A stretch of DNA of 64,000 nucleotides, taken from contig OY725499.1 of NCBI GenBank assembly GCA_963281255.1, positions 2,623,148 through 2,687,147 of the forward strand. The letters are read 5' to 3'. A model generated the notes under the pieces. It was not told where the DNA came from, made no database searches, and saw only the letters and a list, made by a program, of their open reading frames with translations. The stretch comes from Aphrocallistes beatrix (taxonomy: Eukaryota; Porifera; Hexactinellida; Sceptrulophora; Aphrocallistidae). Of this stretch, positions 1,243-63,456 are shown piece after piece. How positions within the stretch are numbered: the stretch's first letter is position 1; each line of letters starts with the position of its first letter. Both the position numbers and the translations under genes were made by a program.

Positions 1243-1678
1243 CAAGCCCGCTTCGCTTGCTTGCGCTGCGCGGCTGGCAGACACTGTGTCCGTCAGAGGC
1301 GTACTTTGGACGCCTAGGCTCACATTGATTAATTGTAAGGAGATAACATCTTCAAATACGTTGTCTTACTGTTATAATCGAAATCACTCGAAAAATCATC
1401 AAATTTGTCAATTTTTGATGCGTAATGATGACGTCATAACAGAGTGATTATATTATATATGCAGAATATTATTATACACATTCTATTAAAATTTCAGCCC
1501 TTTATCACCTAAAATGGCTGAGTTATAGTCGAAAAACTGAAATTTCTAATTAGAAAAAGGTGACAATGACGTCATAATTCCATGATGAGTCGACAGCTTT
1601 CTGCGCTTGGCAGTTTTTTCAATCAATTCGTTAGATATATGTGTATATATAAACATAATCGAGTTTGAATAGTAAGGA
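1243..1678 (-). mobile_element. Helitron-like non-autonomous element, subfamily A
   Basis: On the minus strand it starts TCCTTACTATTCAAAC, preceded by A, and ends GCGGGCTTG, followed by T. There is no terminal inverted repeat and no target duplication. The GC-rich 3' end carries the hairpin-forming block also found at 36.5, 53.3, 54.0, 54.4 and 62.6 kb. Its start matches the TC-plus-TATTAAAA style of many Helitron 5' ends, but the final CTTG differs from the usual CTRR. It is the shortest complete-looking copy (436 bp) and codes for nothing recognisable. Confidence 0.7.
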
Positions 1679-6506: not shown

Positions 6507-7406
6507 TTAAATTTCTTTCATGAGTTCTTTAACACCTAACAAAAGTGTTTGAATATTAGTGAACTTGATTGGCATAAGAAAACAGATAAAGGACATAAAA
6601 CTGAATGGAGAGGGAATTGGAATGAACTGTTTACAAACACGAATTCCATTAACGATAGCCGTTGCTACGCTGACAGGAGGCATGCTCTGGAGTACCGTAG
6701 GAATCGGACTTATGAGAGGAGTGTCAACTGCTGAAGGATAGGCCACAGATATGTTCACATTACGGCTGTTAATCATTTCAAGTTCCTCCATAAGTGATGC
6801 GTAGAAGTTGGAAAGAGCAGCTTTACTAGCAGAGTAGGAACTTATGTGTGTGGTGCCTCTAAATGCCGTAATAGAGGATACGCACACAATATATCCACTA
6901 TCTCTCTCCACCATCTTCTTCAAGAAATACCTCGTAAGCCACACTATGGAGATGAAGTTGATCGTCATCAGACGGTCGATTTCATGGTGTTCTATTTTGT
7001 AGAGACGGTTGAAGTTTAGAATGCCGGCATTACACACCAGGATGTCCACTGGACCGTGTTCCCTTATCACACTCTCAGCAGCCGACTCCACTGCTCCTCT
7101 ATCGCTCACATCCACAGTGTAGACGAAGGCTCTGCCTCCAGACTCACGGATCATCCTAGCCGTCTCCTCGTTTCCTGTCTCATTCACATCCCACAGTGCC
7201 AGAGTGCAGCCGTGCTTAGAGAGTTCGAGACTCGTCTCTCTCCCGATTCCGCTCCCGGCTCCAGTCAGCAGCACAAGTTTCCCGTTCAGGTCCTGCTTCC
7301 TGCGCAGCCAGCCAGGCAGCAAGCTGACCACGACTTCGAAGCAGAGCGTGAGAGCGAGGACGACCAGCAGGATGGGAAGGTCTATGAGGAGGTAGCCAGA
7401 TCGCAT
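6507..7406 (-). CDS. Short-chain dehydrogenase/reductase, SDR16C (17beta-HSD11/RDHE2-like), copy 1
   Basis: Membrane-anchored SDR of 299 residues from the Met used here. Residues about 8-30 form a hydrophobic N-terminal anchor, followed by the NAD(P) motif TGAGSGIG (48-55), NAG (126-128), the catalytic serine in VCVSS (174-178) and YSASK (191-195). The layout fits the SDR16C branch (HSD17B11/13, RDH10, SDR16C5), ER or lipid-droplet enzymes oxidising or reducing retinoids and steroids; the substrate cannot be read from sequence. A second copy lies 3.7 kb away. DNA identity between the copies starts at the shared catalytic-region boundary (6871) and runs to 7441, then stops, so upstream of 7441 this copy lacks the extra 22-residue start of copy 2. 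Either the Met at 7406 is used or an unseen upstream exon supplies the N-terminus. The C-terminal 120 residues differ clearly from copy 2. Confidence 0.9.
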   Translation of the reverse strand: MRSGYLLIDLPILLVVLALTLCFEVVVSLLPGWLRRKQDLNGKLVLLTGAGSGIGRETSLELSKHGCTLALWDVNETGNEETARMIRESGGRAFVYTVDVSDRGAVESAAESVIREHGPVDILVCNAGILNFNRLYKIEHHEIDRLMTINFISIVWLTRYFLKKMVERDSGYIVCVSSITAFRGTTHISSYSASKAALSNFYASLMEELEMINSRNVNISVAYPSAVDTPLISPIPTVLQSMPPVSVATAIVNGIRVCKQFIPIPSPFSFMSFICFLMPIKFTNIQTLLLGVKELMKEI

Positions 7407-7609
7407 TTTGGGATACCGGTTTAATAGCAGCGTTGCTAGAGTTATAATACATAATGGAGGGATATGTGTATGATATGTTCTAAATGAGGGTAGACTACTA
7501 ACCTATTTGGCTCATATCCGGGAAATCCTCGCTATAGTCAGGGGTATATTGGGAGAACGCCGTCCCTTACTTTAAATTCTAGAGGGAACACAAAGGCGTG
7601 TATTACATA

Positions 7610-10170: not shown

Positions 10171-11148
10171 TTAGATTTCAGAGGTGCGCCATTTTCCTTG
10201 TCCCGACACCGAAACTAAAATATTGGAGAAAGTCACCGGAAGCAGGAAATAAATAAAACCGAATAGTTTGATCAAGGATGGAATAGCAACGAACTGTCTC
10301 TCCACAAGGATTCCGCTAACAATCGCCCTAGCCACTTCATTGGGTGAGCGAGGTGAAATCTCCGCGCCTGATGCCATCACAGGTCGAATGAGTGCTGTGT
10401 CTACGAGACTAGGATGAATAACTGAGATGTGCACATTCTTACAGTTGATCATATCCAGTTCTTCCATGAGCACCGAACAGAAATTAGAAAGAGCACACTT
10501 GCTAGCTGAATAGTCGGTAGAATGTGTAAGTCCCCTCATCGCATTCATAGAGGATACGCATACAATATATCCACTATCTCTCTCCACCATCTTCTTCAAG
10601 AAATACCTCGTAAGCCACACTATGGAGATGAAGTTGATCGTCATCAGACGGTCGATTTCATGGTGTTCTATTTTGTAGAGACGGTTGAAGTTTAGAATGC
10701 CGGCATTACACACCAGGATGTCCACTGGACCGTGTTCCCTTATCACACTCTCAGCAGCCGACTCCACTGCTCCTCTATCGCTCACATCCACAGTGTAGAC
10801 GAAGGCTCTGCCTCCAGACTCACGGATCATCCTAGCCGTCTCCTCGTTTCCTGTCTCATTCACATCCCACAGTGCCAGAGTGCAGCCGTGCTTAGAGAGT
10901 TCGAGACTCGTCTCTCTCCCGATTCCGCTCCCGGCTCCAGTCAGCAGCACAAGTTTCCCGTTCAGGTCCTGCTTCCTGCGCAGCCAGCCAGGCAGCAAGC
11001 TGACCACGACTTCGAAGCAGAGCGTGAGAGCGAGGACGACCAGCAGGATGGGAAGGTCTATGAGGAGGTAGCCAGATCGCATTTTGGGATACCGGTTTAA
11101 TAGCAGCGTTGCTAGAGAGATTATGAAAAGTAGCAGAAATCCTAGCAT
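10171..11148 (-). CDS. Short-chain dehydrogenase/reductase, SDR16C-like, copy 2
   Basis: Intronless 325-residue SDR. It starts with MLGFLLLFIISLATLLLNRY, a first hydrophobic stretch absent from copy 1, then a second one (about 30-52). TGAGSGIG is at 70-77, NAG at 148-150, and the catalytic Tyr/Lys in YSASK at 213-217. All key residues are present. From 10547 to 11117 the DNA is identical to copy 1 except for one base near the left edge, while the C-terminal part (substrate loop and tail) has diverged strongly. Family knowledge suggests an ER or lipid-droplet retinoid/steroid dehydrogenase; the divergent C-termini suggest different substrates, which is inference. Start chosen at the first Met of the open frame. 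Confidence 0.92.
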   Translation of the reverse strand: MLGFLLLFIISLATLLLNRYPKMRSGYLLIDLPILLVVLALTLCFEVVVSLLPGWLRRKQDLNGKLVLLTGAGSGIGRETSLELSKHGCTLALWDVNETGNEETARMIRESGGRAFVYTVDVSDRGAVESAAESVIREHGPVDILVCNAGILNFNRLYKIEHHEIDRLMTINFISIVWLTRYFLKKMVERDSGYIVCVSSMNAMRGLTHSTDYSASKCALSNFCSVLMEELDMINCKNVHISVIHPSLVDTALIRPVMASGAEISPRSPNEVARAIVSGILVERQFVAIPSLIKLFGFIYFLLPVTFSNILVSVSGQGKWRTSEI

Positions 11149-11267
11149 GTAATAGCCTACTCATGAGTATCAAGGAAAATAGTTAGTTTAATTAAAAGAT
11201 AAAACAGTTAATAATCCTGAAATTTTTATTCTTATTTAAATGTACTCCTGACTCCCAAATTCTCAGT

Positions 11268-17406: not shown

Positions 17407-18741
17407 CAGTCTGTAACATAATTATTGAGAATCATTAAAATACTGTAAAACACACGTTCATGCGAATATCTTCTAGTCGTTTGAATATATTGTTAACAAC
17501 ATGCCAATAACTAATAATTAATCGGAAAACCGCCTGATTCTATCACTAATTGGCACCTGCGTGGCATGGAATCACAGTATGGCTTGAGAAATTCAGGGTT
17601 TATGTTCGACCATACGATCTCGAGTTTTTCTCTCAGTTCAGAAATTGTCCTGGGAGCAAGTTTTGTGTTCTCGTTTAACCCATCCGAAAACATTCTCAAT
17701 CGGGTTGAGGTCAGGGCTCTGCGAAGGCCATGGTAGATGGTTTGGGATATTTTGGGACAAAAATTCCTTGACAACCTTCGAAGTGTGTTTGGGTCATTAT
17801 CCATGACTAGACGCCATCCATTTTGGTGAAAGACCTCAGCCTGGGTTAACAGATGCCCTTCTAGGATGGTAATAAACATTTGGCTGTTCATATTATCAGC
17901 AAAGATGGAGAGAGGAAACGTCCCCATTGAGCTAAATCCTGCCCAAACATTAATTTTGGGGGTATGTTTAGTCGTTGGAGCTGTTCTTTTTGTGTCGGAT
18001 TTTGTCCACATTTTAATCCTTCCTCGAGACAACCAAATCGACCTTTCATCGGTATAAACAGTCTTATTCCATGCTTTTTTTGGGTACTTATGCTTCTTTG
18101 CCCATTGAACTCTCGCAAGCCGATTTTTCTCGCTCACTATCGGTCTGTTGGTCTGATATTTTTAGTATAGTCGGTCTTTCATCGCTCGCCAGACAGTTTC
18201 ATGAGAGGGTTTCCCGGGGACAAGATTAGCCAAAGTTCGCAGAGAGATAAGGCTTACGTCTGATCTGTTGGGAAATGCTTTTTCGGATAGATGATCTCAG
18301 TTTAGACGGTCTCCCAGCACCCTTACGATGTTCTAAACCAATGTTGTCTTGTTTTCTAGATTTCACCCTATAAACCGTGGCAACGCTTACGCCCAACTTC
18401 CGTGATATCTCCTTTACAGATAAACCGGAGTTGTTCAATAGTGTTTCTATTTGAGTTCTCTTTAGTTTTTGACTCATGTAGGCAGTATTACTAGCTAAAT
18501 CATTGATAGGAAAAAGATAAAAGTTAAATATGCAAAAAATTAAGAAAATGGTGACGTCATCATTTAATTTGAGCTTGTATTTTTAGCAAAAAATGGAAAT
18601 TTCTTTCAATATGGTCAAAATACTTCAGAAAAATGAAGATAAAGCTAATTTTGATAGAGAGTAAATGATAGAAGAGAGAGATTTATTAAAATTGGTTCAA
18701 TAAGAATTTATAAAAATTCTCAATAATTATGTTACATACTG
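17407..18741 (-). mobile_element. Tc1-like transposon, complete ends but inactive
   Basis: 1335 bp bounded by 26-bp inverted repeats beginning CAGTCTGTAACATAATTATT at the left and the complement of CAGTATGTAACATAATTATT at the right. TA flanks both ends (17405-17406 and 18742-18743). The length is that of an intact Tc1 element. The inside encodes a minus-strand transposase broken by frame changes. It lies just downstream of LANCL, with its right end only about 60 bp from the LANCL stop codon. Confidence 0.9.
17511..18477 (-). pseudogene. Tc1 transposase, frameshifted
   Basis: The N-terminal paired-like DNA-binding domain is at 18226-18477 (helix-turn-helix SVKEISRKLGVSVATVYRV, then an AT-hook-like GRPSK). 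The catalytic domain continues at 17511-18137 with VYTDERSIWL (first Asp) and VMDNDPN (second Asp). The third catalytic region, which in Tc1 follows 'WPSQSPDLNPIE', is present at about 17680-17740 but in another frame. The gap between the two parts (18138-18225) and this shift mean no functional enzyme is made. Confidence 0.9.
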
Positions 18742-36006: not shown

Positions 36007-36558
36007 TCCTTACTATTAAAACTCGATTAATGTATATTTATTTATATAGTATATATATATATATCTGTAACGAATTGATTGAAGAAACTGCCGGGCGCAG
36101 AAAGCTAATTTTTGGCATGTGGGAGTCTTTTGGCTATGGTTCCAGTAAGTTCTGAGCTCAGAGTAAAATGTCGACTCATCGTGGAATTATGACGTCATTG
36201 TCACATTTTTAAAAGTTAAGCAACACAATTATTCGAGCATAACTCAGCCATTATAGGAGATAGAAGGCTGAAAATTTAATAGAATATTTATACTAACATA
36301 CCTCACATATGATGTAACTATCATCAAAGAATGATGACTCATCACTTTGTTATGACGTCATCATTACGCATCAAAAATTTTAAAATTGTCAAATTTGGTG
36401 ATTTTTCAAGTGATATCGAATATAAAAGTAAGACAGACATATTTAGAGATGCTATCTCCCTTATAATTAACCAATGTGACCCCAGGCGACCGAAGGGAGC
36501 GTCCGGCGGACACAAAGTGTCCGCCAGCCGCGCAGCGCAAGCAAGCGAAGCGCGCTTG
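36007..36558 (+). mobile_element. Helitron-like element, subfamily A
   Basis: Starts TCCTTACTATTAAAACTCG after an A and ends CGCGCTTG before a T, with no flanking duplication. It has a TA-rich run near the 5' end, then 'cgaattgattgaagaaactg', and a GC-rich 3' end with the hairpin GGCGGACAC-aaa-GTGTCCGCC. It includes a run of open reading on both strands that is not protein-like. Immediately after it (36583-36620) is a Tc1-type inverted-repeat fragment 'gggtgtacgaatactttt'. Confidence 0.8.
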
Positions 36559-36880
36559 TTATTAATTAAATTAAATGGAAAAGTGTGGGGTGTACGAATA
36601 CTTTTGGTCGGAAGCATATACAGTTACATCTTCACAAAAATATTCAGCAGTCATTAATCTCTTAAGCATTGCTAAGAGAGGAATTACGGACGGACGGACA
36701 CCGACATTCATTCTAGTTAGGATGCATGTACTATAAATCAAAGAAACGAAGTGAGCTTGTTACGTTCGACCCAGATTGATTATAATAAAACATAATAAAC
36801 ACTCTTTGTTTGTATGTTTGTTTGCTTTTAATCTAAGTACAGTTGTGATGTTAGACAGGAGTCAGCAAAATGTCACAAAC

Positions 36881-39477: not shown

Positions 39478-42400
39478 TCACTTTTGATCTCCGTGAACTT
39501 GCAGCTTAGCAAAGTGGAGGAAAACTTGCTCTAAAGTAGTCTGACTCACGCCATAGCTGGCGATGTTCAGTCGGAGCTTGAATTTTTCCAGCGTCATGAA
39601 GATTTCTGAGTAGTGATGGCTTTCGCTAGGAATGTGGAAGTCCAGGGATAGAGAATGCTCGCTCATCAGCTTTGAACCGGGAAATTGAGTTTCAAACAAA
39701 TCCTTGAGATTTCTGATAGTTTGACCATTTTCTTCAGAATTATCCAAATCCTTCATTTGTAAGTTTATTGTGTATCCGTCGTCAAATTTCGTTTTGAGAT
39801 GCTGAACATTTCCGAGACATTTGAATTCACCATTCACCATAATAGCAAGCCTCGTGCACAGAGCTTCACACTCTTCCATTGAGTGCGTAGTTAGGACGAT
39901 GGTGCGTCCTGCCTTCGTCACCGCCTCGATCACATCCCAAAATTCACGCCGTGAGTCCGGGTCCATGCCCGTCGTGGGCTCGTCCAGGAGGATGATGGGT
40001 GGGCCTCCAATCAGTGCCGCAGCTGAGCTCAACTTCCGCTTGTTCCCGCCACTATAAGTCTGGTTACTGAACTTGGCGTGAACCTGCAAGTGCATGCGAT
40101 CAATTTCAGTCTGAACTGCCTCCGTAATAAACTTTTCTGGAATCCCCCGAATACGGGAGTAGAGAGTCAACAGCTGGTACGAGTTCAAATAGCCTTGTAG
40201 CGCGTCGAACTGAGGGCAGTATCCAATCATCTGCTGAACCTTGCTTAATTGCGTTCTCACGTCGAAACGTTCGATTCTTATCGACCCGGAAGTTGCAGCC
40301 AGATTCCCAGTTAGCATTTCGAAGGTTGTAGTTTTGCCTGCACCGTTTACTCCTAACAATCCAAAGCACTCTCCATGTCGCAATCCTAACGAAAGATTAT
40401 TCACAGCTAGCTTGGAAGACCTCTTGAACAATCCACTTGTGTAAATCTTCGTTAGATTCTTAATGACGATCGCATCGTCCCTGTTCCTCTCAAATTTTAT
40501 CCTTTCCTTCTCATTCAACACATCGTCGTCGATTTCATCATTGGTGTTCTCCATATTTTGATGTTTAGGATTCTTCTTAATTAATTGGTTGAAATGGATC
40601 TTGTCCACAACTAGTGTCAGAATAAATGAAATTATTCCAAGGATGGTTGGCAAAACGATGAATAGCAAAACTCCTGGAATTTGAAAAGAAAATTGAGACT
40701 CCTCAACATCAAATCCTTGATCTCTACAAGTTTGCAAGGTGAAGGGAAAGGTGCTACAGAAATCCAGATTTCTTGTGTTTATATAGATTCTGTAAATGCC
40801 ATTCGCAACGGAAAAACATGGGAAAATGGAAAAGATGTACTGAAGTGTTTGTGAAATTTCAGAATTAGATAACGCAAGAGTTTGAGAAATCAAAATACCC
40901 AACACAAAGGAAAGAAAATGGATGACAGTAAGAGATCCAAATGCTACAAGAGTAGAATCAAAAAGAAAACTAAAGAGGTAAGCCATAAGCAGAGCACTGA
41001 TGATATAGGAGAGCAATAACAGCCACACGAGGAGAAGATTGCTCCCAGTGAAAGGAGTATTTGGAAAGAACGTAAAAGGAAGAAATGTTATAATCAAAAT
41101 TGCTACTGAAAGTATTACATCAAACAATAGGTTCCCGACCCAATAGCTAGTGCTGTGAAGTCCAGAAACATACTGAAGAAATTTGGAGCGATTTTCCCTC
41201 TCTTCAACGATAAAAATAATGAAACTACCTCCAACGAATGCCAGTGCGAATCCGATGAATAAAGCGATGGAAAGCGCCTCAGTAGGTACTTGAACAACAT
41301 CAATCGCGTTATTCGCAATAGGTAATGGGTGGTTGTGGATGCTAATTGTGGGTGGGGTACCAGAGAGATTGTAGACTTTCCAGAGATGGTTAAGTTGGTA
41401 ATTATGCAAGTTCACCAAACCAACAGCGACTAGCACATCCAATTCAGTGTTATGCCATAGGGTGACTCGTGCAGGAGAGTTGGGTATATTCGGATAGGTC
41501 CTACCAACACCGGGACGGTTGCAAGTGGAATCTGTAGCGAGCGCATCGAAACAAACACCACTCGATTCATTCATGTTTGTAACAGTCACTGATTCTGAAC
41601 AGCACAGACATTCGCCATTACCAAAAAAGGGAACTTGTCTGTTGGTTGTAAAACCAGCAAAATAAGTTTCCAAATATTCGACACGTTTCACAGATCCTAG
41701 TCGGAGAATATTCTCATCGATAAAACTTACGTCGACCGGAAGTGGCCCCCGGTACGTATCTGAGAAGACACCAGGACTTGCCGGATTGTACACAATCCTA
41801 GGCGGTCTTGGACACGTGAAATCGGAGCTCGAATTAGCACAATCGAGGCATTGAGGACAGTTGGCATATCCGAAACTTGGGTTAATATTAGCACAATAGT
41901 TTATCACGTTGAAGGCAGATGCGAGTAGGTGTGAACAGAACTCATCGAGAATTTGGTATTCGTAACCGCAACACTGTGATACATTGGTATATGTTTCGAT
42001 GGAATTGATAATAGCGAGGTAATCATCCAAGTAAGGTATTCCCTCGAAATTCCCATTCAACTGGGCGAAATTTGGCAGAAGAGATAGCGTAAAGTTATTT
42101 GCAAACGCACCATTAGTTCCTGGAGTATCCATGAAGAATATAGAAGCTCGATCAGGTCTTGTAAACGTGTTGTCCACTGAGAGGACGAGATCATTTGTTA
42201 CAGAGACTGTAGAGTTGATGTAATTATTCAACAGTGCTAATACAGTGAATGCGAATGGAAGGAAGAGCTGAAGAAATACGATTTGATAGCGACGAACTGC
42301 GAATAAAACTTTTTTCACAAATACTGCCCATATTTGTTGAATCCTCAATGTAATTCCAGTATTGAGGGTGATCGTACGGAACAAGTTCTCTTCTGCTACT

Positions 42401-45400
42401 GGCACTAGCTCTTCGTGAGTTGGAGCTAACTCACCTAGTTCGACTTTGTCCAATACCGACTGGAGCCTTGGCCTTTCTCTCAGTAATATTGTCTTTATTC
42501 TTTTGCTCCCTACTCTATAATTGTGCCTCTTTTCATTAGCAACATTTCTTTCTAACACCTTTATTTCCACGTTTTTCTCTACTGGAACTGTTGATTTAAT
42601 ACTGTCGATGTTACTCTCAGTTATCTCGCTCCTCACTTCTTGTTTGTTACTATTTTCTATCGAATTCGACTTAGATACAGTTTGCATAAAAAGACTTCTT
42701 TTTAAGGTAGCTGTTTTGATAGATTGAGTTGTAACATAATTTCTTTTTATTGAGGAATTTGGTTCTTTTGGAATTATACTTATTGATTTGGAGAATACTG
42801 AATCTACTGGCACAATATCAGTTGAATCTATTCCTTCTTCCTTCTCATCAATTGAAAACAGCTGGGATGTGTTTCTCTCGCTTAGTTTGGACTCTGAAAT
42901 GTGTCTCATTAATGTTTGTCTACGGAGTGTTTTTATCTCATTTGTTTCTTCAAATTTGATGCTACTTACTTCACTAAATACCTCTTCCAAAGTGGTCAGA
43001 CTACATCCAAAACTCTCCACTCCAAGGATCGAACCTGATTCTTCAAGAAATTCAAACAATTTTATAAACTTCAACGGTTGATCCAATGGAAGAATGAAGG
43101 ATATTGAATTGGAAATGTAATCTTCTAAACTTGCTTCCGGGACGTAGTGGTTGACCACATCAAACACTCGATTTGGAACTTGCAAAGGATCATTCCCGTC
43201 TGTCTCTAAACTCATTGTTAAATGATAACCAACGCCGAACCTTGTCTTGAGAAAGAGAGATGAGCCGCATGCTTTCAGTTCTCCTCTGGCCATTATAGCG
43301 ATTCTGTCACCAAGGACATCAGCCTCTTCCATGAAGTGTGTCGTGAGGAGAATAGTGCGTCCAATCTTGTTCTTTTCCAGCATATCCCACAGAGTCCTTC
43401 TAGCTTCAGGGTCCAATCCTAAGCAAACAAGTTTAAATACAATTGATAGTGTTTGTTTAATAAAATTAGATGTAATCACATCTACGTAGCTACAGACAGA
43501 TAATGTCCAATACATAACATGCGAGTATATTCTCAGAAATGAGGCTCGACAATCAACATTTGCTCTTTTATAGTCACCTTGTTTCAAATATTAATTAAAT
43601 ATTAATTAGGTTCAACCGGACCACTTCAAATGAGGTGCCGCCAGCCCTGTAAAGTGAGGACAAACTGCTCTGATTTGTGGCTTCACCTCCTGGAGCCGCA
43701 TTATCAGCTGTCGCGACAGACATTATTCTAATGAAGTTACTACTAATTTAATTTAAGACTCACCAGAGGTTGGTTCATCCAGTATCACTGTTTTTGATCC
43801 TCCAATAAATGCTAGACCAACTGAAAGTCTTCGCTTCATGCCACCTGACAGATTACTGGACAAAACATGCTTCTTGTGCACCAGATTAATATCCGACATT
43901 GTCTGGTTAACCTCTTCCATCGCCTTACCCCAATTCCAAATGCCCTTCAATCTGATGAAGAAGTGGAGATGTTCCCACACACTCAGACGGTCGAAAAGAA
44001 CATTGTGTTGTGGACAAATTCCGAGGCTTTCCCTCACTCGATCAGGGTCTTTCGTGATATCATAGCCATCTACATAGGCAGTGCCTGATGTCGGAGGAAA
44101 GAGACCAGTTATGATCGAGATTGTTGTACTTTTCCCTGCGCCATTATGACCTAACAGGGAAGTGATTTGTCCTTTGTACAGATTCAAACTGAGTCCTTTT
44201 AATGCTTTCTTCTCTCCAAAATGTTTCATGAGACCTTCAATCTTCAGTCCTACATCAATATCATGCGGTTCCTTTTCAAATGCATTTTGCATTTCATTCG
44301 CAAATATGGTCTCATTTTCAATCGAATCATTTGTTCCACTACAATCGATTCGTTTTCCACACCAGTAGTATGGCGTGAATAGGAAGTAGAACGGCCTTCG
44401 ATATCCGTACTCTTTGGGAAGAACCTCGTCCAGATACCACGCCAGTACGAAATAGATGACGGAATCTAGCAGTAGCATCAGATACATATGCAGTACTGTC
44501 ACTTCACTGAAGTTGTTCAGTGGAGAGTTGATATTGGACCATTGTAAACCGACTTGCAGTTGCTCCAAATTAGATACTACAGTGAGGGCGATAGAAAATC
44601 CGGAGTTACTTAGGAAAGAAAGTAGTAGATGACCGTATAAAGGAATGATAAAGAAATAATTTTGAATGGCAAAATATGGAATAAAATTTGTAAAATAACC
44701 AAACAAAATGGCAATCAGAGCCACCCGTGAAGACTTGAAGACACTTCCAAGCAAGAAAGAGAAAGTGATCAAAGCATTGACATGCAACATGAAGAGAAAG
44801 TACAGAGTCAAAAAGTCAGAAAAAGGAAAGATACCTCCGAATTTGATGATGATTGTACAGATGAGAACGATGGGAGCTAAGAAAATCAAATTTTTGAAAT
44901 ACCAACTGAACCAATTCACACCTTTAGACAGACCCATAATCAACATTGATTCTCTCAGTTTAGTTTCTTTCTCAAAAGCTATTTCTTTGGTGATCGAAAT
45001 AGCCGAATAAAGATAAATGAAAATTAAGAAAACTGGAATTATCACTTCCAATTGTATCAAGAATCGATTGAAGGTTATGGGAAACCGAGGGAATGGTTTC
45101 ACATCAATAGGCAGGAGGGAAGGAGTGTATAAAGCTGTCAAATTTGAAACTCTTCCTTGTATGACAGACTGAGTTATTGCATCTTGTAAGGAAGTAAACC
45201 CCTCGTCAATGTACTCAGTTGGGAAGAATTCTCCTGGTGTCGCGGCTGGCGGACTCACTTCGCTGTTTAGATTATTAGGATCCAATCTAATCGCAACGTC
45301 AATGTTAGGCTCCAGTTGGTTGAAAACGATTCCAGCGATTGTAGGACGATATACTCTATAAAATGCATTAAAATAATATAGGAGATATCAATACTTAGTG

Positions 45401-45983: not shown

Positions 45984-46625
45984 TGCAGAAAATTATTAAT
46001 TAAAGATATTTAACGATAATTTGTAAGTCTTCACTTTTTCTTAGTGTGCAATACGAATTTATCGAATAAATTTTCCGCAGGTCTGCTTAGTCTACATATA
46101 TAACAATTTGAGACAGATTGGCAATGAAAAAACTATATTACTAGTTTAAACGAGTGAAATAGTCTGATATATTGATTTCAATAAATATCTTAATACATAT
46201 TGTAAACTAACAGCCTACGGTTCAGGCTAATTTATTAGTTGATACCTGAACTCAATTGGAACTAGTGGATAGTGCTAAATCTAAGCAAATGTGTTTTAAT
46301 GTAATGATGATGAATCCATGAATAAGTTATTCTTATTCGCTGCAATTAAGAGAAATACAATATTTGATTAGTTGATGATTTTTTTCCAGAATAAATTAAT
46401 AAGTTCATTGCTGCACATATTTAGTCTGCCGCGTATGTACTTGTATACTATGTAGAGTAGAGTGACCACTAACTAGTGATTATTATTATCATAAAAAGGT
46501 TACAATGACGTCATAATTATGTAATGAGCTGACATTTTCATTTGACTTGCTCGAGTCAGTGACAAAATGTGCCAAAATCAGGTTTCTGCGAATGGTGGCC
46601 TCAATCAATTCCATAGACGTATATA
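45984..46625. other. Upstream region of the ABCA gene
   Basis: AT-rich, presumed promoter and 5' UTR. No other feature. Confidence 0.35.
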
Positions 46626-47074
46626 CATTCACTCCCTGGACAAAAGTATTCGTACACCCTAAATGTTTTCATCCAAATTGTTATAATACTAATCCATTTA
46701 TGAAGTCAAAAACATTCATCAGTAACAGATACACTAAATCTGACTTCAAATTTGTTTTCTTCACATTCAAATTACTCGCTTAGTAAGCTTTCAACCTAAT
46801 TACTCTCCTTCAAGATTAAGTATTATCAGCATTTGCTATCTTATGCCACATGTCATGAGTTATCACAATTATATATGAGGTAGCACAGTTTAAAAATGTT
46901 CAACCTTGTGAGAGAGTAATTGAGTTGAAGATTATAAAGTGAGTAATTCGAATTTTCGGCTAAATTAAGCATATCTCCTACTAATTAAATTCCCTTGACT
47001 CGATAAATAGATTAGTATAATAACTATTTATATGGGGAATTTGGGGTGTACGAATACTTTCCTCGTCCCGACAA
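46626..47074. mobile_element. Tc1-type MITE, about 449 bp
   Basis: Shared end core AAAGTATTCGTACACC near the left end (after CTCCCTGGACA) and its complement GGTGTACGAATACTTT near the right end. TA dinucleotides flank both ends. The outermost bases differ between the ends, so the boundaries are approximate. Another single end of this type lies at 36583-36620. Confidence 0.55.
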
Positions 47075-47239
47075 TATACGAATACAAATGAATAAATATA
47101 AATCGAGTTTTAATGGTACGTGTATAGATTTATCCAGTATTTTCTTTCATTTATGTAAAAAATCGAATTTTCAACCATTTTTGAACTGAATTAAGAAACT
47201 AGGAGTGAGATGATCGACCAATTGAGTTTTAGAAATATA

Positions 47240-47933
47240 TCTTATATATTAAAACGCTAGGATTTTTGTTTGTCCGAATTGATTGAAGAATTGGCAAGTC
47301 GTAGAGATACGAAAATTGGTATGTGGGTGTCAAGTGATGAATCTACGATTAAGTTCGAAGATCTAAGCGAAATTTTCACGCTTCTGCAAAAAGAAAAGTC
47401 AATTTTTCACACCTTTTCTATACAATACTATGTACGGCTTCACTCTCACAATAGAAATTATTGTACGACACTATTGTAGGCTGCCATTGTTATTAATACT
47501 TCAAAGCAATAACTTATATAGAGTCTCAATTATATTATAGTATATAGCAATAAAAAAGGTTTGTGTATATTTTCACATCTTTATATACATATTTTAACAC
47601 CATTTGATGAATTTTAAAAAATCGCTAGAGACTAGCTTCCAATGGTTGACATGGAGTTTTAGGGGTGTAGATTTCGACTACGGTATTATATTTTCAGATC
47701 AATATGATTTATTTGTATACTTTTGTTCACATTAGACACATAAAGTAAACAAATTACAAAAATAGGCTAGAGGCCAGCTTCCAACGGTTGACATGGGGTT
47801 TTCAGGGGTGTAGATTTAGAACATTATATTTTCGGATTCATATGAGAAATTATTTGTCAACTTTTGTTTACAATATTTATATAAAGTAAACAAATTCCCA
47901 AAATTGGCTAGATTGAGTAACTCCAGGCGCCCG
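47240..47933 (+). mobile_element. Helitron-like element, subfamily B, 3'-truncated
   Basis: Starts TCTTATATATTAAAACGC after an A, with 'tgtccgaattgattgaagaa' following as in subfamily A. The inside has tandem units of about 125 bp containing 'ggttgacatggggtttt', 'ggggtgtagattt' and 'aagtaaacaaatt'. The GC-rich 3' end breaks off after 'ctccaggcgcccg'. Confidence 0.75.
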
Positions 47934-48421: not shown

Positions 48422-51400
48422 TTATTGACTGTTTTTGATAAAGTAGCTCATTCTTGCAGCATTGCGCAACTGTGCTTCATTTCTCGGATCGAGGTGAGAG
48501 AGAAGATGGCTCAGATAGCTATTCTCCCTTCCGAGCATCAAGAATGGAACATCTATCTCGATAATCCTGCCTCTCTCTAGCACTACAATTCTGTCTGAAT
48601 CTATAATCGTCTCAATGCGATGTGCAATTGTGAGTACTGAACAATCTGAAAAGTGACTCCGAATAGCCTGCTGGACTAATGCGTCAGTTTGCAAGTCAAC
48701 ATTAGCAGTCGCTTCGTCTATCAGAATTATTTTGTTCTTTCTGAGAATTGCTCGAGCTAAGCACAAGAGTTGACGCTCCCCTGCAGAGAAGTTATGTCCA
48801 TCTTCCGCCACACTCGTCATCAGCTGATCAGGCAGAGATTGAACCATATTGCATAGATGGGACTTTGTGAGAGCATCCCAAATCTCTTCTGAGCCAAACT
48901 CTTCAAATGGATCCAAGTTGTAGCGGAGTGTCCCAGTGAAGAGAAAGGGGTCCTGCGGGATGATGGACAGTCTCTTGCGATGCTGGAACAGATTCAGACT
49001 TGAGATATCTTCGTTATCAATCATAATGCGACCAGCAGATATTCCATTGAGGAGGAAGAGCGAACTGAAGAGAGAAGATTTCCCTGCCCCTGTTCTCCCG
49101 ATGATCCCTACCTTCTCTCCTGGTCGGATGTAAAGAGAAACGTCGATGAGTGAGTATGGGAGATCTTTCGAATATTTGAAGCAGACTTGGTTAAATTGGA
49201 TTATTCCACTACTTCCTTTAAGAAGTGAAATAGAGTTCTGTTTGCATTCGTGTATCTTTTGAGAATTCTCTTGTTTCAGTTTGCAGTACTTCAATATTCG
49301 ATCTACAGACACCATCAAGATGTCTACGTCTCCGCTAAGTCTCAACACATATTGTAATGCCGTTGGTAAAGATAGGATGAGAGGAATCGAAAATTCGATG
49401 AGTTCGTTCCTTCCAAGGAAGTGTTTGGCAATGATAGCAGAGAATATTCCAAAAGTTACCACAAATACAGTCAGAAAGTCAATTCGTATTCCAAACCACC
49501 TATTACAAGCTAAATAATTATACCATGCACGCGAGTGTTCGTCTAGAAAGTAATGGAAATCTTTTGTGACTCTTGATTCCAAAGAGAGAGAGCGTATCGT
49601 GGTGAGGCCTTGTAGGGTGAGGGAGATGTGGGAGTAGAGAGGACTACGAGCAATGCTTTCCAAACGTTTCACTTGTGAACAAGTTTTGAGGTACCAATAT
49701 CTAAACCCTAACGTGCACAGCACTAACACACTGAAAGGTAGCAATAAGTAATACTGAACTAAACTGCTAGCTATCACAATGCCAATGCAATAAGTTGAAT
49801 ATTGCCAGAAGTCGTAGAATAACATGGGAAGTTGCTCATCCAGAAAACCGAAATCTTTGGAGAACCTGTTAAGGATGCGACCACTGGGGTTAGTATCAAA
49901 GAAATGGATCGGAGTGTATAAAACTGTCCTTAACATTCTTTGATGGAGTCTCCTGCTAGCTTGAAGCACAATGTAATAGAAATTGAACCCGCGAAGAAGC
50001 ATGAAAGCAAAACCTGAAAAAGTGAATAATGCTACCAATTTCAGAGATCCGGAGTTGTGAATGTTGTAATACCAAGGACATTGTGTAAGCGTTGAGTTTG
50101 TCATATTATTTCCATCAAGTGTGAGATTTCTGTTTTGGAAACATCGTGTGGTAGACTGTATCCACCAGTAAGAGAGGATAATCCCTCCGTTGCTCAAGAT
50201 AGTCAGCAGCAACATGGAAATTGTTGGTAAGAATCCACCAGCCCAAAAGTATCTGATATACGTGATCAGAGTGAAGGATGTTGTTGCGTGTTCTTCCTCA
50301 CTGACTGAGGTGGTCAATGGCTGTTGTTTATCGACATCCTTATTGAATTCACCTGTGAAACCTTGTGTCGCACATTCTGGATTTATTATTGAATCTTCCT
50401 TATCATGCAAACGTTGTTCTATTGTTTCATCATTAACTTCCAAAGCATGAAGGAATTCTTTACAAAAGCCGTCCTTAATAATTTGTTGATAAGTGCCACT
50501 CAATTTTAATTTTCCTTCGTCCAACACGAGAACTTGATCTGCTTTCATCACATACTCAATCTGGTGAGTTACAAGTATGACAAGTTTTTCTTTGAGGAAT
50601 TCTTTCATACATTTTTGGAATATTTTCTGGCCTACCTTCACATCTACAGCACTGAGAGGATCATCAAAGAGATAAATATCAGCTTGATGGTAGACTGACC
50701 TAGCTAAGGCCACCCTGGCCTTCTGACCGCCACTCAACGTAATTCCTCTCTCACCGATCAATGTCTCGTCTCTCTTGTCAAAAGAGGAAATATCTTCTCT
50801 TAAACAACAGGCCTCGATAACCTGACTGTAGCGAGTCGATAGGAATGGCTTCCCGATCAGTATGTTGTCTCTGATGGTACCAGAGAATATCCATGGTTCT
50901 TGCGCAGCATAAGATAGAACTCCTCTCGTTGAGATGTCTCCTGAGATGCCTGGAAGTTCTCTGATCAGACTCAGGAGGAGACTCGACTTTCCTGATCCGA
51001 TTGGGCCTGTAATGACTGCTAACTGAGGTTGGAAAAGTTGAAGACTGATAGATTTTAGAACTCTACTTCTGGATTCACCATCACCTGTGTCATTCCAAGA
51101 TGCTGTAAATTTTTTAATTTGAATAGCAGAACTGTTTCCTTTTTGGCAGATGCATGACTTTAGTAAAATTTCTTTAACTCCTATTGGAAGATCCAAAATC
51201 CTTTGAACCCTTTTCAATGCAATCACAGTTTCACTGGTCGTAAAAATCGATTGACCCATGTACAAAACAAGATAAGTTCTGATTACATTGAAAAGTAAAA
51301 AAGCTGCACTTAACTGAGAAGTGCTTATTGGATCAGAAATCTGATAACTAACGACGTAGATTAAGAACAGCCCTATGAACAGACTGGAACTGAAAAACGT

Positions 51401-52372
51401 AAAGTTAGTACTCTGTGCGATTCCTGACATGCTGGCGTATGATATTTCTTTCCTTCGAATCTTACTGATGTACTTAACAAACGGAATCTCCCAAGCATAG
51501 AATTTGATCACTCGCATTCCTCTGATGATCTGGTCCATGAGTCGGATGCGTATATCAGCTGTTTTTGATTGATGGAATCTCAAGTATCCAAATATGTAAC
51601 CAAGAAATGCCTGTAGCGGTGTATGTAATATAATGTATCCAAATCCTATCAGTCCAATGGGTCCGATATAAATGATGATCACTAACAAGCAGACTATTGT
51701 CAAAATAGGAGAAATCCAGATATAGTCCCAGTAAGAAATCCCATAGTCCAATTTGAATACGTCGTTAGATGCGAGGTTAATAATATGGCCTATGGATGTT
51801 TCATGTAGTAGAGTTTGTTGCATTTTGAGGGATTTCTTAAATATAGCCGTAATACAGATAGCTCTCATTTGCAATCCAACGCAGAGTCCTATGTAAGATG
51901 TGTTACTATTAATGACTGCTATTAACATGCTATTAAGGGAGATCAAGATTGCAATAGCTATACTTTGAACATATGCATTGCTAGTACTTATATTCAGAAA
52001 AATTTCGGAATCCGGTTCAGAAAAGTAATAAACGAGAAGCGCTTGAATTACTAACAAAAGTCCTACAATAAGGCGGCCAATGCTACTGATGCATAAGAAG
52101 AGTTTGCATGTTTTCGCTAGTGCAATCTTGATGTCAGGATTTCGTTTCTTTTCGACTTCATATTTCCAGTATTTGTCAAATGTCTCATACAACTTCTGGG
52201 AACATTGTTCATTTGGACATGGAAAAAGATCACTTTGTTTCAGTTTACTCCTAAATCCTTTGAAAAAGAAGGTTTCTAGCCATGTGAAAAATAGTTGAGA
52301 GAAAAGGTTTCCTCTGTAATCTTTTCTCTTTAGATCGAAATTCATTCTATAAGAAGTGTAGCACATAAACAA
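48422..52372 (-). CDS. ABCC-family transporter, MRP4-like, single exon
   Basis: Exports organic anions, conjugates or cyclic nucleotides across the plasma membrane (ABCC4-type family role). 1316 residues (1307 from Met10) in one exon. It lacks the extra N-terminal TM domain of long MRPs. Order: NLFSQLFFTWLETFFFKGF, TMD1 with FYAWE (about 291-295), NBD1 (Walker A GPIGSGKS 456-463; LSGGQKARVALARS 546-559; YLFDDPLSAVD with Asp in place of the catalytic Glu, as usual in ABCC NBD1), a linker, TMD2, and NBD2 (GRTGAGKSSLFSSL; FSAGERQLLCLARAILRK; ILIDEATANVD). Start: MNFDLKRK (Met10) is a good alternative to the first Met. No intron for nearly 4 kb is notable. Confidence 0.95.
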   Translation of the reverse strand: MFMCYTSYRMNFDLKRKDYRGNLFSQLFFTWLETFFFKGFRSKLKQSDLFPCPNEQCSQKLYETFDKYWKYEVEKKRNPDIKIALAKTCKLFLCISSIGRLIVGLLLVIQALLVYYFSEPDSEIFLNISTSNAYVQSIAIAILISLNSMLIAVINSNTSYIGLCVGLQMRAICITAIFKKSLKMQQTLLHETSIGHIINLASNDVFKLDYGISYWDYIWISPILTIVCLLVIIIYIGPIGLIGFGYIILHTPLQAFLGYIFGYLRFHQSKTADIRIRLMDQIIRGMRVIKFYAWEIPFVKYISKIRRKEISYASMSGIAQSTNFTFFSSSLFIGLFLIYVVSYQISDPISTSQLSAAFLLFNVIRTYLVLYMGQSIFTTSETVIALKRVQRILDLPIGVKEILLKSCICQKGNSSAIQIKKFTASWNDTGDGESRSRVLKSISLQLFQPQLAVITGPIGSGKSSLLLSLIRELPGISGDISTRGVLSYAAQEPWIFSGTIRDNILIGKPFLSTRYSQVIEACCLREDISSFDKRDETLIGERGITLSGGQKARVALARSVYHQADIYLFDDPLSAVDVKVGQKIFQKCMKEFLKEKLVILVTHQIEYVMKADQVLVLDEGKLKLSGTYQQIIKDGFCKEFLHALEVNDETIEQRLHDKEDSIINPECATQGFTGEFNKDVDKQQPLTTSVSEEEHATTSFTLITYIRYFWAGGFLPTISMLLLTILSNGGIILSYWWIQSTTRCFQNRNLTLDGNNMTNSTLTQCPWYYNIHNSGSLKLVALFTFSGFAFMLLRGFNFYYIVLQASRRLHQRMLRTVLYTPIHFFDTNPSGRILNRFSKDFGFLDEQLPMLFYDFWQYSTYCIGIVIASSLVQYYLLLPFSVLVLCTLGFRYWYLKTCSQVKRLESIARSPLYSHISLTLQGLTTIRSLSLESRVTKDFHYFLDEHSRAWYNYLACNRWFGIRIDFLTVFVVTFGIFSAIIAKHFLGRNELIEFSIPLILSLPTALQYVLRLSGDVDILMVSVDRILKYCKLKQENSQKIHECKQNSISLLKGSSGIIQFNQVCFKYSKDLPYSLIDVSLYIRPGEKVGIIGRTGAGKSSLFSSLFLLNGISAGRIMIDNEDISSLNLFQHRKRLSIIPQDPFLFTGTLRYNLDPFEEFGSEEIWDALTKSHLCNMVQSLPDQLMTSVAEDGHNFSAGERQLLCLARAILRKNKIILIDEATANVDLQTDALVQQAIRSHFSDCSVLTIAHRIETIIDSDRIVVLERGRIIEIDVPFLMLGRENSYLSHLLSHLDPRNEAQLRNAARMSYFIKNSQ

Positions 52373-53047
52373 CGAACGATATTATATTTTTGGTGTCTTT
52401 TATTTTACAAGCTTAGACAGATGATTATTTCCAATTATATATCGTAATACGCAAAAAAATATTGATGGAATGGCATTTTAACAGACTATAGTACACATGA
52501 CTGGGATCAATATTTTTCAGTAATTACTGCAGGTCTTACGAAATTCGATTGAAATTCCTTCATCCAACCTGAACGAAGTATTTTCAGACCAAATATCTCC
52601 AATATTAAAGGAGTGATCTATGCTTTCCCGAATTTTGGATTTATTCTAGGTAAAAATTGCTCAATAATTTGTAACGATGGTTGCCCATTGATAATTTGCG
52701 AGTAAATATCATTTCCGTGTTGAACTGATCTCCTATGCAAAGGAGATCGGTTCAACACATCTTGTTTGCATCCCAAACATTATTCTTGATTAATTTCCAG
52801 GTGTTTAAAATGTCTTATGCACCTTATGCATAAAAAAGATAGGGTTGCATTCATGGTTTCTGAGTATGACTTTTTTTGTCTCTAAAAGTTGTCCTATTTT
52901 GTCGCTAAGTGTCGGATCAAAAATCGTATAGTAACTTCGTTTACCAATAAACATTTAACACTTTTTGTCCAAATTTCATCTTTCTCGCACTTGTGGTATT
53001 CCCGAAAAACGCGTTATGGAGAAAATAAATAAAAATACTATAGGGAG
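52373..53047. other. Upstream region of the ABCC gene
   Basis: AT-rich, presumed promoter and 5' UTR. A short perfect palindrome 'gaactgatctcctatgcaaa' / complement occurs at about 52722-52756. Confidence 0.4.
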
Positions 53048-53235: not shown

Positions 53236-53536
53236 CAAGCGCGCTTCGCTTGCTTGCGCTGCGAGGCTGGCGGACACTTCGTGTCCGCCGGAGGCTCCCT
53301 TCGGTCGCCTGGAGGTGACATTGGTTAATTATAATGGAGATAACATCTCTGAATACGTCTGTCCTACTGTTCTAATCGATTTCACTCGAAAAGTCACCAA
53401 ATTTGTCAATTTTTAAAATTTTGATGAGTAATGATGACGTCATAACAAAGTGATGAGTCATCATTTTTTGATGATAGTTGCAGCATATGTGAGGTATGTT
53501 AGTATACACCCTTACTATTAAAACTCGATTGTTATT

Positions 53537-53572
<36 letters not shown>

Positions 53573-54286
53573 TAACGAATTGATTGAAGAAACTGCCGGG
53601 CTCAGAAAGCTGATTTTTGGCATGTGGGAGTCTTTTGGCTATGGCTCCAGTAAGTTCTGAGTTCAGAGCAAAATGTCGACTCATCATGGAATTATGACGT
53701 CATTGTCACATTTTTAAAAGTTAAGCAACACAGTTATTCGGGCATAACTCAGCCATTATAGGAGATATAAGGCTGAAATTTTAATAGAATCTGTATACTA
53801 ACATGTCTCACATATGATGCAACTATCATCAAAAAATGATGACTCATCACTTTGTTATGACGTCATCATTACGCATCAAAAAATTTTAAATTCACAAATT
53901 TGGTGATTTTTCGAGTGATATCGATTAGCACAGTAGGATAGACATATTTAGAGATGTTATCTCCCTTATAATTAACCAATGTGACTCCAGGCGACTGAAG
54001 GGAGCCTCCGGCGGACACAAAGTGTCCGCCAGTCGCGCAGCGCAAGCAAGCGCGAAGCGCGCTTGTAATCTATTAAAATTTCAGCCTTCTATCTCCTATA
54101 ATGGCGGAGTTATGCCCGAATAACTGTGTTGCTTAACTTTTAAAAAATGCGACAATGACGTCATAATTCCATGATGAGTCGACATTTTGCTCTGAGCTCA
54201 GAACTTACTGGAGCCATAGCCAAAAGACCCCCACATGCCAAAACTCAGCTTTCTGCGCCTGGCAGTTTCTTCAATCAATTCGTTAC

Positions 54287-54320
<34 letters not shown>

Positions 54321-54345
54321 AATAATCGAGTTTTAATAGTAAGGA
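53236..54345 (-). mobile_element. Helitron-like element X, interrupted by element W
   Basis: On the minus strand its 5' end is TCCTTACTATTAAAAC (ending 54345) and its 3' end is GCGCGCTTG next to T (53235). Element W (53509-54065) splits it. The pieces left and right of W line up with uninterrupted copy Y (54346-54932). Confidence 0.8.
53509..54065 (+). mobile_element. Helitron-like element W, nested inside X
   Basis: Starts CCCTTACTATTAAAACTCG after the A at 53508 (first T mutated to C) and ends GCGCGCTTG before the T at 54066. X continues on the other side with no base repeated: target A|T, no duplication. Includes a long TA run and the hairpin GGCGGACAC-aaa-GTGTCCGCC. Confidence 0.82.
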
Positions 54346-54932
54346 CAAGCGCGCTTCGCGCTTGCTTGCGCTGCGCGGCTGGCGGACACTTTGTGTCCGC
54401 CGGAGGCTCCCTTCGGTCGCCTGGAGTCACATTGGTTAATTATAAGGGAGATAACATCTCTAAATATGTCTGTCCTACTGTGCTAATCGATATCACTCGA
54501 AAAATCACCAAATTTGTCAATTTTAAAATTTTTGATGCGTAATGATGACGTCATAACAAAGTGATGAGTCATCATTTTTTGATGAAAGTCGCATCATATG
54601 TGAGGTATGTTAGTATACAGATTCTATCAAAATTTCAGCCTTCTATCTCCTATAATGGCTGAGTTATGCCCGAATAACTGTGTTGCTTAACTTTTAAAAA
54701 TGTGACAATGACGTCATAATTCCATGATGAGTCGACATTTTGCTCTGAACTCAGAACTTACTGGAGCCATAGCCAAAATACTCCCACATGCCAAAAATTA
54801 GCTTTCTATGACCGGCAGTTTCTTCAATCAATTCGTTACAGATATATATATATATATATATCCTTACTATTAAAACTCGATTATTGTGTATGTGTATATA
54901 TATATACAATCATCGAGTTTTAATAGTAAGGA
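54346..54932 (-). mobile_element. Helitron-like element Y, joined head to tail to X
   Basis: Its 3' end (GCTTG) directly touches the 5' TC of X, and its own 5' end is TCCTTACTATTAAAAC at 54932 after A. Near the 5' end (54867-54932) there is an extra inverted copy of the 5' terminus. The 123-residue open frame at 54171-54542 spans the X/Y junction and is not a gene. Confidence 0.75.
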
Positions 54933-55194: not shown

Positions 55195-56984
55195 GGCCGT
55201 ATTCACTAAGAACTTAAGACCGATCTTAAGATCGATCTTAGTGCTTAAGTCTTAAGTTCGATCTTAAGTCGTATTCACTAAGATTTAAGTTCGATCTTAA
55301 GACCGAACTTAAGACCGAACTTTAAGCAACCTAGGGAGGTGTCTTAAGTATTGGAATTGATTCGATTTTCACTAATTACTCCATAAATGTTGTTCAAACT
55401 TACTTCTATCGAACATTTAATCTACCTTGATTGATATTAGACTTCAAATAAAATTTAAATATTTTAAAAACATTTCTCCTTATTGTGTAACATCGCAACA
55501 TGTACATGCTATATTCGTGGCAAATTCTTTTTGGATTTGTATGAATAAACAAACATACATTCTTTGATCATATAATCATACACTCATTCTAATATGCACA
55601 ATTATAGAGACAGGCTTTATATATTGATTCACATGACTGATAATAATCACTTTGATCCTATTTTCCTATTCACAATGATTTTTTCAGCAGTCTCTGACGT
55701 TTCAATCTATAATAGTCCCTCTGCTTTTCATCAACCTGCTGTAATGGAAGTAAGTCTGCAGCCTTCAAGAGTTAGACCGAATCATCTTGCTCATCAACAG
55801 TTCGCCTTCTCTTCTGACTTTTCTTTGATGGCTTACGAGTATATATTGTCGGGATTTCAACTTCTGGAGACTCTAAAATTGGAGTATCTTCAAATTCAAC
55901 AGGACCTGCAGCTGATACTGTTGATGCTATTGGAATTTCATTGTTCTCAGCTGGTGCTTTGAAAAAGATCAGCAGCACCTGTAATTCCGCTAAAAGCAAG
56001 GGTGTTTTGAAACATCTCTGTTACCCGATCTGCAGGGTCAGAAATACTTCTATCTGCTGATATAATTGCATGTCCTCGTCTTCTACCTGTCCAGCAGTGT
56101 TTGTACCCCACACCAGTCTTTCTGGCTTCCTGTTTTTGTCAGCAGAATTCCTGAGCCTCTCAAAATCTCACCTGCTGATTCAATTTCATTAATGAGACTG
56201 CACTCTTCTTCTCTGGTCCAATTTGCTTTGCGGGATTTGTCCATTTGGTCTGGTATTGTTAATGCAAGTACTCAGCAGCAATTTGTATACACGGGAGGAC
56301 GCCGACTTACCATAACCACTAATGACACCAATTATTTTCGTAACACCAAATGACGCAGAAATTTTACCGTCGATAGAGTTCAATTTATTGTACTTCTCAT
56401 ATCCAGTGTTTATACTTTGTTTTAGAGAGGTTTTCATGTTACAATATATAAAGACACGTCGTTTATATGTTTTGTTTAATATAATATTATGAATCCATGA
56501 GGTATAACTTGTGCTCTTTGATAGCTCTTCCTTTGATATTGACTAGTGTAGAATAATTATAGATTACATGCATAAAACATTGAATTTTCATAATACTTGT
56601 AGAATTCAAAGTTAAAACAAAGATTTCACCACAGATATGTAAGACTCACTAGCAGGCATTCCAGGCGGTACAACTACATAGATAGAAGCTATGTCTTACA
56701 GGAGTGGGTTAATCAATCTTCTTTGCTCCTAATATTGACATTAATTGCCCCAATTTTGAACAAAAAGAAGAAATATAGTTTATTTTCACTAGATCAATAA
56801 TAAATGACCACTTACCATTACAAATATTATAGTTCAGTTTTGTATTTGATTAGTATAATGCTATATTCTAATCATATTAACCCTAACGTTATTTCTAAGT
56901 TCTATCTTAAGATCGATCTTAACTAAGATCGATCTTAAGACTTAAGATCGATCTTAGTGCTTAAGATCTTAGTGAATACGGCTG
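55195..56984 (-). mobile_element. Harbinger-like non-autonomous element with Myb/SANT fragment
   Basis: Inverted ends GCCGTATTCACTAAG and CTTAGTGAATACGGC, each followed inward by repeated 'cttaagatcgatctta' type units. On the minus strand at about 56075-56240 a Myb/SANT-like DNA-binding piece is visible (NWTREEECSLINEIESAG), the kind of second protein that PIF/Harbinger elements carry, and basic residues at 55772-55999 (KKSQKRRRT). No DDE nuclease was found. No 3-bp target duplication was evident. Confidence 0.65.
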
Positions 56985-62530: not shown

Positions 62531-63456
62531 CAAGCACGCTTTGCTTGCTTGCGCTGCGCGGCTTGCGGACACTGCGTGTCCGCAGAGTCGCCCTGCGGGC
62601 GCCTGGAGTCACTTAATCTAACATATTTTGGAATTTTTTTAATTTGTATAACTATTGTAAACAAAGGTCGACGAATAATTTATCATATGGATCTGAAAAT
62701 ATGATATTCGAAATCTACACCCCTGAAAATCCCATGTCAACCATTGGAAGCTAGTCGCTAGCCTATTTTGTAATTTGTTTACTTTATGTATCTATTGTAA
62801 ACAAAAGTAAACAAATTGATCATCAAATATACTCGAAAATATGATATTCAAAATCTACACCACTGAAAACCCCATGTCAACCGTTTAAATCAAGTTTCTG
62901 GCATATTATTGAGATTTGTTTACTTCAGGTATCTAATGTAAACAAAAGTAAACAAATACTTGATCATATAAATCTGAAAATATGATATTCGAAATCTACA
63001 CCCCTGAAAACTCCAAGTCAACCGTTGGAAGCTAGTCTCTAGCATTATTTTCAAAATTCATCAAATGGTGTGAAAATATGTATATAAAGGTGTGAAAATA
63101 TATAGATAATTTTTTTGATTGTCATACACTATAATACATTTAAGCTATCAAACATTAGTTGTGGCTTTGAAGTATTAATAACAATGACGATATATTGTAG
63201 TGTTGTACTTGTACAATGATTTCTATTGTGATAGTGTAGGTCATTTATTTAGTATAGAAAAGGTGCGAAAAATTGTTTTCCATTTTTTTTGTAGAGATGT
63301 GAAAATTTCGCTTAGATCTTAGAACTTAATCGTAGTCATATCATTTGACACCTACATGCCAATTTTCACATCTCTATGAATTCCCAATTCTTCAATCAAT
63401 TCGGACAAACACATAAATATAAAAACAAAAAAATCCTAGCATTTTAATATATAAGA
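62531..63456 (-). mobile_element. Helitron-like element, subfamily B, complete
   Basis: Minus strand: 5' end TCTTATATATTAAAATGC after A (63457 complement), 3' end GCGTGCTTG before T. 926 bp. The 3' end has the hairpin TGCGGACAC-tgc-GTGTCCGCA and a second GC-rich stem. Inside are three tandem units of about 125 bp with 'gaaatctacacccctgaaaa' and 'aaagtaaacaaat'. No coding capacity. Confidence 0.82.

Follow-up and report, generated by a model that had tools for sequence, protein, structure and literature searches.

The window analysed here is a stretch of 64 kb (64,000 nucleotides), whose positions 53236-54932 consist of three copies of one short repeat family, designated W, X, and Y (Table 1). 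W interrupts X, and Y is joined to X head to tail, so that on the minus strand the 3' CTTG of Y abuts the 5' TC of X with 0 bases between them. The coordinates and junctions assigned to the three elements in a first-pass annotation of this DNA, including the head-to-tail contact of Y with X, proved exact on recheck. That annotation overlooked an inverted 46-bp copy of the family 5' end inside Y, owing to which the Y 5' end (54861-54932) forms a strong foldback (z -11.6, equalled by none of 200 shuffles). The inverted copy could be a 3'-truncated insertion, a local inverted duplication, or the product of a template switch in the TA repeat.

Table 1. Family copies, their relatives, and the palindrome in the 64-kb window
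Feature	Positions	Strand	Description
Element W	53509-54065	+	557 bp, full length; inside X in opposite orientation; 5' CCCTTACTATTAAAACTCGA, 3' GCGCGCTTG; flanks A / T
Element X, whole	53236-54345	-	interrupted by W; 553 bp once W is removed
X, 3' half	53236-53508	-	ends with CTTG, followed by host T
X, 5' half	54066-54345	-	begins with TCCTTAC beside the CTTG of Y
Element Y	54346-54932	-	587 bp, full length; host A on the 5' side, first T of X on the 3' side
Inverted 46-bp copy of the family 5' end in Y	54861-54906	+	Y positions 27-72; preceded by A; nhmmer E 2.8e-6
Element V	36007-36558	+	552 bp, full length; flanks A / T
Element Z	1243-1678	-	436 bp, more diverged, with internal gaps; 84-85% identity over aligned bases; flanks A / T
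Element U	62531-63456	-	926 bp, second family; 5' TCTTATATATTAAAATGC, 3' CTTG; flanks A / T
Element T2	47240-47925 (3' limit approximate)	+	related to U; truncated, lacking its 3' end; preceded by A
Element T	46492-47122	-	diverged truncated relative, interrupted by other DNA
Palindrome ATGACGTCAT	1428, 1566, 36189, 36352, 46505, 53434, 53694, 53857, 54155, 54545, 54708

Searching the window with the 53236-54932 stretch gave two more copies, V and Z, and a profile built from the five copies (V, W, X, Y, and Z) and run on the window for further relatives matched at 62531-62619, 63302-63423, 46489-46627, 47274-47384, and 54861-54906. U, which represents a second family, has a 3' end closely related to that of the V/W/X/Y/Z family, its last 61-85 bases matching at 82-87%, and its 5' end TCTTATATATTAAAATGC looks related to the family 5' end as well. 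The interior of U holds about three copies of a 140-bp tandem repeat; arrays of ca. 140-bp repeats are found both in U (62617-63055) and in T2 (47617-47912), and each of these elements is preceded by A.

The palindrome ATGACGTCAT occurs 11 times in the window, and all 11 occurrences fall in family copies: V, W, X, Y, and Z have two apiece, and T has a single one. It resembles a CREB/ATF-type site, and the V/W/X/Y/Z family may spread such CREB/ATF-like sites across the genome.

Several other features were noted in the same window. By eye, a segment at 46636-47075, inside T, has inverted ends (CCCTGGACAAAAGTATTCGTACACCC and its near reverse complement) and looks like a Tc1/mariner-type miniature element; a similar end lies at about 36590-36615, beside V. 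Near Y, a segment at 55200-56945 is seen by eye between inverted repeats rich in CTTAAGATCGATCTTAG, possibly a Harbinger-type element. Two same-strand ORFs for short-chain dehydrogenases (6510-7502 and 10174-11160) possibly represent a tandem gene duplication. Stop-free ABC-transporter ORFs of 1370, 544, and 1319 aa are located at 39481-45387 and 48425-52381, which is long for single exons if the genome is that of an animal.

Termini, flanks, and target sites

The ends of V, W, X, Y, and Z are alike, while their flanks are unrelated. The 5' flank is A in all six elements counted (V, W, Y, Z, U, and T2), a count which omits X, since its 5' side is occupied by Y, and T, whose start is altered to CA, though A precedes it. 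On the 3' side the flank is T in six of six cases (V, W, X, Y, Z, and U), that of Y being the first base of X itself. At the AT dinucleotide frequency of 0.098 in the window, five complete AT sites would arise by chance with a probability of ca. 9e-6. The TC start that had been annotated is present in V, X, Y, Z, U, and T2; it does not hold for W, which starts with CC, and T starts with CA. Terminal inverted repeats amount to 0-1 bp in V, W, X, Y, and Z and to 0 in U, in agreement with the absence of such repeats reported before. No direct repeat was found in the host flanks at four of the five sites (V, W, Z, and U), so that the claimed lack of target duplication stands there; at the fifth site a 2-bp TA borders the X+W+Y block on either side, which is taken as chance in AT-rich DNA.

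The target rule can be read directly at the W site. Once W is removed, X aligns without gaps across the junction to V (81 bp on one side and 195 bp on the other) and to Y (81 and 193 bp), and W therefore inserted at A|T with neither loss nor duplication in X, as had been proposed. W had also been presented as an empty-site proof, which is sound, but paralogous, as it is made across repeat copies. Comparing repeat copies across an insertion is a usual method for such families. At the junction base X has A|T and V also has AT, while on the element strand the A is replaced by C in W and Y and by G in Z. Since V has AT at the site and W, Y, and Z do not, W probably inserted into a sequence variant common to X and V.

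The 3' end and its predicted hairpins

The 3' tetranucleotide is CTTG, and not CTRR, in six of six complete ends (V, W, X, Y, Z, and U). Upstream of it lies a hairpin whose predicted stem measures 9 bp in V, W, X, Y, and U and 6 bp in Z, and which stops 33-35 bases short of the terminus; a second possible hairpin, CAAGC(...)GCTTG, is flush with the final base. The GC-rich hairpin end of the first-pass annotation calls for a correction here, in that the last possible hairpin is flush with the final base and not 10-12 nt upstream. The flush hairpin belongs to the minimum-energy fold of three of the six copies (W, Y, and U) and in X appears only in the centroid; in V, Z, and the consensus fold the last 35 bases are paired in other ways. 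When the 3' ends were folded as single-stranded DNA, each against 200 shuffles, no shuffle did as well as the end of W, V, Y, or U, while that of X was equalled by 5 and that of Z by 14 of the 200.

Covariation was looked for in the 3' hairpins, and none of the 25 pairs predicted in the RNAalifold consensus fold is changed on both sides. By eye, the outermost pair of the first hairpin is T-A in U and G-C in most other copies, one instance that is masked by an alignment gap. The hairpin structure of the 3' end is thus plausible, though not proved by covariation. It may tentatively be considered, as a reading that we hold to be possible but doubtful, that the two families (V/W/X/Y/Z and U) share membership of a Helitron lineage with a 3' end type of its own, in which a hairpin is followed by a second hairpin running flush into CTTG. 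If so, one partner enzyme would read a terminator unlike the canonical hairpin with CTRR. The possible CTTG-flush hairpin common to two families that differ in body is the one feature of the cluster worth a genome-wide look.

Order of insertion of X, W, and Y

The location of W within X makes W the younger of the two, and X would have inserted first, followed by W, which entered X at AT in the opposite orientation. Substitutions from the four-copy majority number 21 in V, 18 in X, 14 in W, and 9 in Y (of 544), which, the counts being small, is suggestive of X being older than W and Y. The place of Y in this order depends on how its join with X is read. Pairwise identity is 95.2% for W-Y, 94.0% for X-Y, and 93.7% for V-Y, and X and Y are thus not the closest pair, which makes it most likely that Y inserted later, at the AT formed by the host A and the first T of X.

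The alternative, that X and Y constitute one tandem rolling-circle product, made when replication overran the end a single time and inserted in dimeric form, appears unlikely. It would fit a perfect join with 0 bases between the copies, and such arrays have been reported in bats and plants (PMC5876387, PMC2267711). However, the two halves of a dimer are identical at birth, and X and Y should then be each other's closest relatives, while W is closer to Y than X is. Of the gap-free columns splitting V, W, X, and Y two against two, three group V with X, two group V with Y, and none groups X with Y; moreover, a 2-bp piece of the terminal hairpin is present in W and Y and absent from X, V, and Z. 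These are small counts, which gene conversion could blur. For adjacent maize Helitrons, whose copies likewise differ, PMC2267711 weighs both of these models and also relates an argument made by others, according to which copies that inserted independently should be separated by a host A. The insertion of Y later than X escapes this argument, since the junction used would be the A|T of X itself.

Random placement of five elements produced a nested pair in 8.6% of trials and an exact abutment in 0.03%. This test was devised after the case had been seen and takes no account of the preference for AT, with which abutment would be more frequent. Nesting is therefore unremarkable by itself. In maize, Helitrons are described as preferring to insert in or near other Helitrons (PMC3288121).

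Family assignment and comparison with known systems

Canonical Helitrons are described as starting with TC, ending with CTRR, and having a hairpin 10-12 bases before the 3' end (PMC5148889, PMC3288121), and the HelSearch criteria, as quoted in PMC4289320, demand a hairpin with CTRR. A strict CTRR rule would exclude the family analysed here. A CTTG end is nevertheless stated for HELPO2 of Pleurotus ostreatus (PMC4289320), and CTTG is reported both for some truncated Helraiser insertions and for maize (PMC4778049), so the rule is not strict, and the CTTG terminus, singled out in the first-pass annotation as an anomaly, has precedents in print. Its Helitron-like reading, on the other hand, is borne out: the A|T target, the absence of a clear duplication and of terminal inverted repeats, the TC start, the predicted 3' hairpin, and the head-to-tail join fit the complete copies, with the small exceptions of the CC start of W and the 2-bp TA at one site. 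The structure argues strongly for Helitron membership. W, X, Y, V, and Z very probably make up a short non-autonomous Helitron-like family in which no gene can be recognised, and which would be moved by the Rep/helicase of a putative partner elsewhere in the genome. The partner enzyme, whose existence we infer, would cut at the 5' TC, one strand would be peeled off until the 3' hairpins and CTTG bring the process to a stop, and the copy would be joined between A and T.

No Rep/helicase or Helitron family is among the matches listed in the scan of window ORFs of at least 60 aa. The protein-family scan covered 90 of 90 ORFs of at least 80 aa and 95 of 111 ORFs of 60-79 aa, the other 16 of which all overlap the long ABC-transporter ORFs; for the 90 ORFs, the best 25 of 59 families were listed at E 0.01 and all 16 families at E 1e-7. 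Rescans comprised the 10 longest ORFs (E 0.001), 61 of the 90 (sharing one ORF with that set), and eight more, while 12 were included only in the two full scans. In the 10 ORF proteins inside or overlapping the elements, transposase families gave no match up to E 0.1. Elsewhere, far from the elements, two neighbouring minus-strand ORFs match DDE_3 (17514-18161; E 4.6e-6, narrowly below the curated cut-off) and HTH domains (18229-18582), and this ORF pair is probably a broken Tc1/mariner-like transposase. Transposase_1 was matched in one small ORF of the window and in none of the element ORFs tested.

Relatives were also sought beyond the window. The 3' hairpin has no exact match in the viral contigs scanned. 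A scan of bacterial and archaeal genomes with the terminal stretch gave one locus, in a Dinoroseobacter metagenome-assembled genome, which matches the elements over at most 25 bases and by eye resembles bacterial coding DNA, and a scan of viral contigs with the 5' end likewise gave one locus, matching over at most 23 bases (E 0.32) and again resembling coding DNA by eye; both were rejected as chance matches. In the literature searched, the 5' motif of the family was not found in connection with Helitron.

Assignment of the family to the Helitron2/Helentron branch in place of the canonical Helitrons is improbable, even though its 3' end is not CTRR and the short satellite-like arrays in U and T2 recall those of oyster Helentron-derived elements. 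Insertion occurred at A|T and not at T|T at the sites counted, and the first 35 bases of V, W, X, Y, Z, and U have no above-chance inverted match in their last 200 bases (the longest perfect match is 6-8 bp, equalled by 26 to 161 of 200 shuffles). The oyster Cg_HINE is described as a non-autonomous rolling-circle element that, like U and T2, contains short satellite-like arrays, but a preference for TT is described for Cg_HINE and subterminal inverted repeats for HINEs (PMC7492417), while U sits at A|T and has none above chance. That the elements are no Helitrons and were moved by another duplication-free enzyme, e.g. an unrelated HUH nuclease or a tyrosine recombinase, is highly improbable, since, for all that no enzyme gene is among the matches listed for the window ORFs and that the termini depart from the CTRR rule, the combination of a TC start, insertion at AT, a GC-rich predicted hairpin at the end, no inverted repeats, and head-to-tail joining agrees with Helitrons, among which a CTTG end has been published (PMC4289320, PMC4778049).

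Taken as a short non-autonomous Helitron-like family, the cluster is well preserved and instructive but ordinary, as the CTTG end, head-to-tail joining, and nesting are already in print; it raises no new question on mechanism. Its value lies in the fact that the target rule, the orientation, and part of the insertion order are directly readable in one short stretch, and it is useful for teaching or for calibrating Helitron finders, of which those requiring CTRR would miss the family.

Among the known systems, HELPO2, compared by its description in PMC4289320, shares with the family the A|T target, the CTTG 3' end, and a subterminal palindrome; a Rep and helicase ORF is given for the families described there, while no coding copy was seen in this window. 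Helibat1/Helraiser, as described, likewise has a TC start, an A|T target, no duplication, and a 3' hairpin (PMC4778049, PMC5876387). Helraiser, however, normally ends with CTAG and has a 19-bp palindrome 11 nt upstream, while here the predicted hairpin lies 33-35 nt upstream and is followed by a possible flush one. Head-to-tail joins of Helitrons have been described in maize (PMC2267711) and bats (PMC5876387). In the adjacent maize Helitrons the 3' end likewise abuts the next TC, forming a G/T junction, the copies differ, and consecutive insertions are inferred by the authors (PMC2267711); the members of the maize pair are dissimilar and contain gene fragments, while X and Y are short copies of one family.
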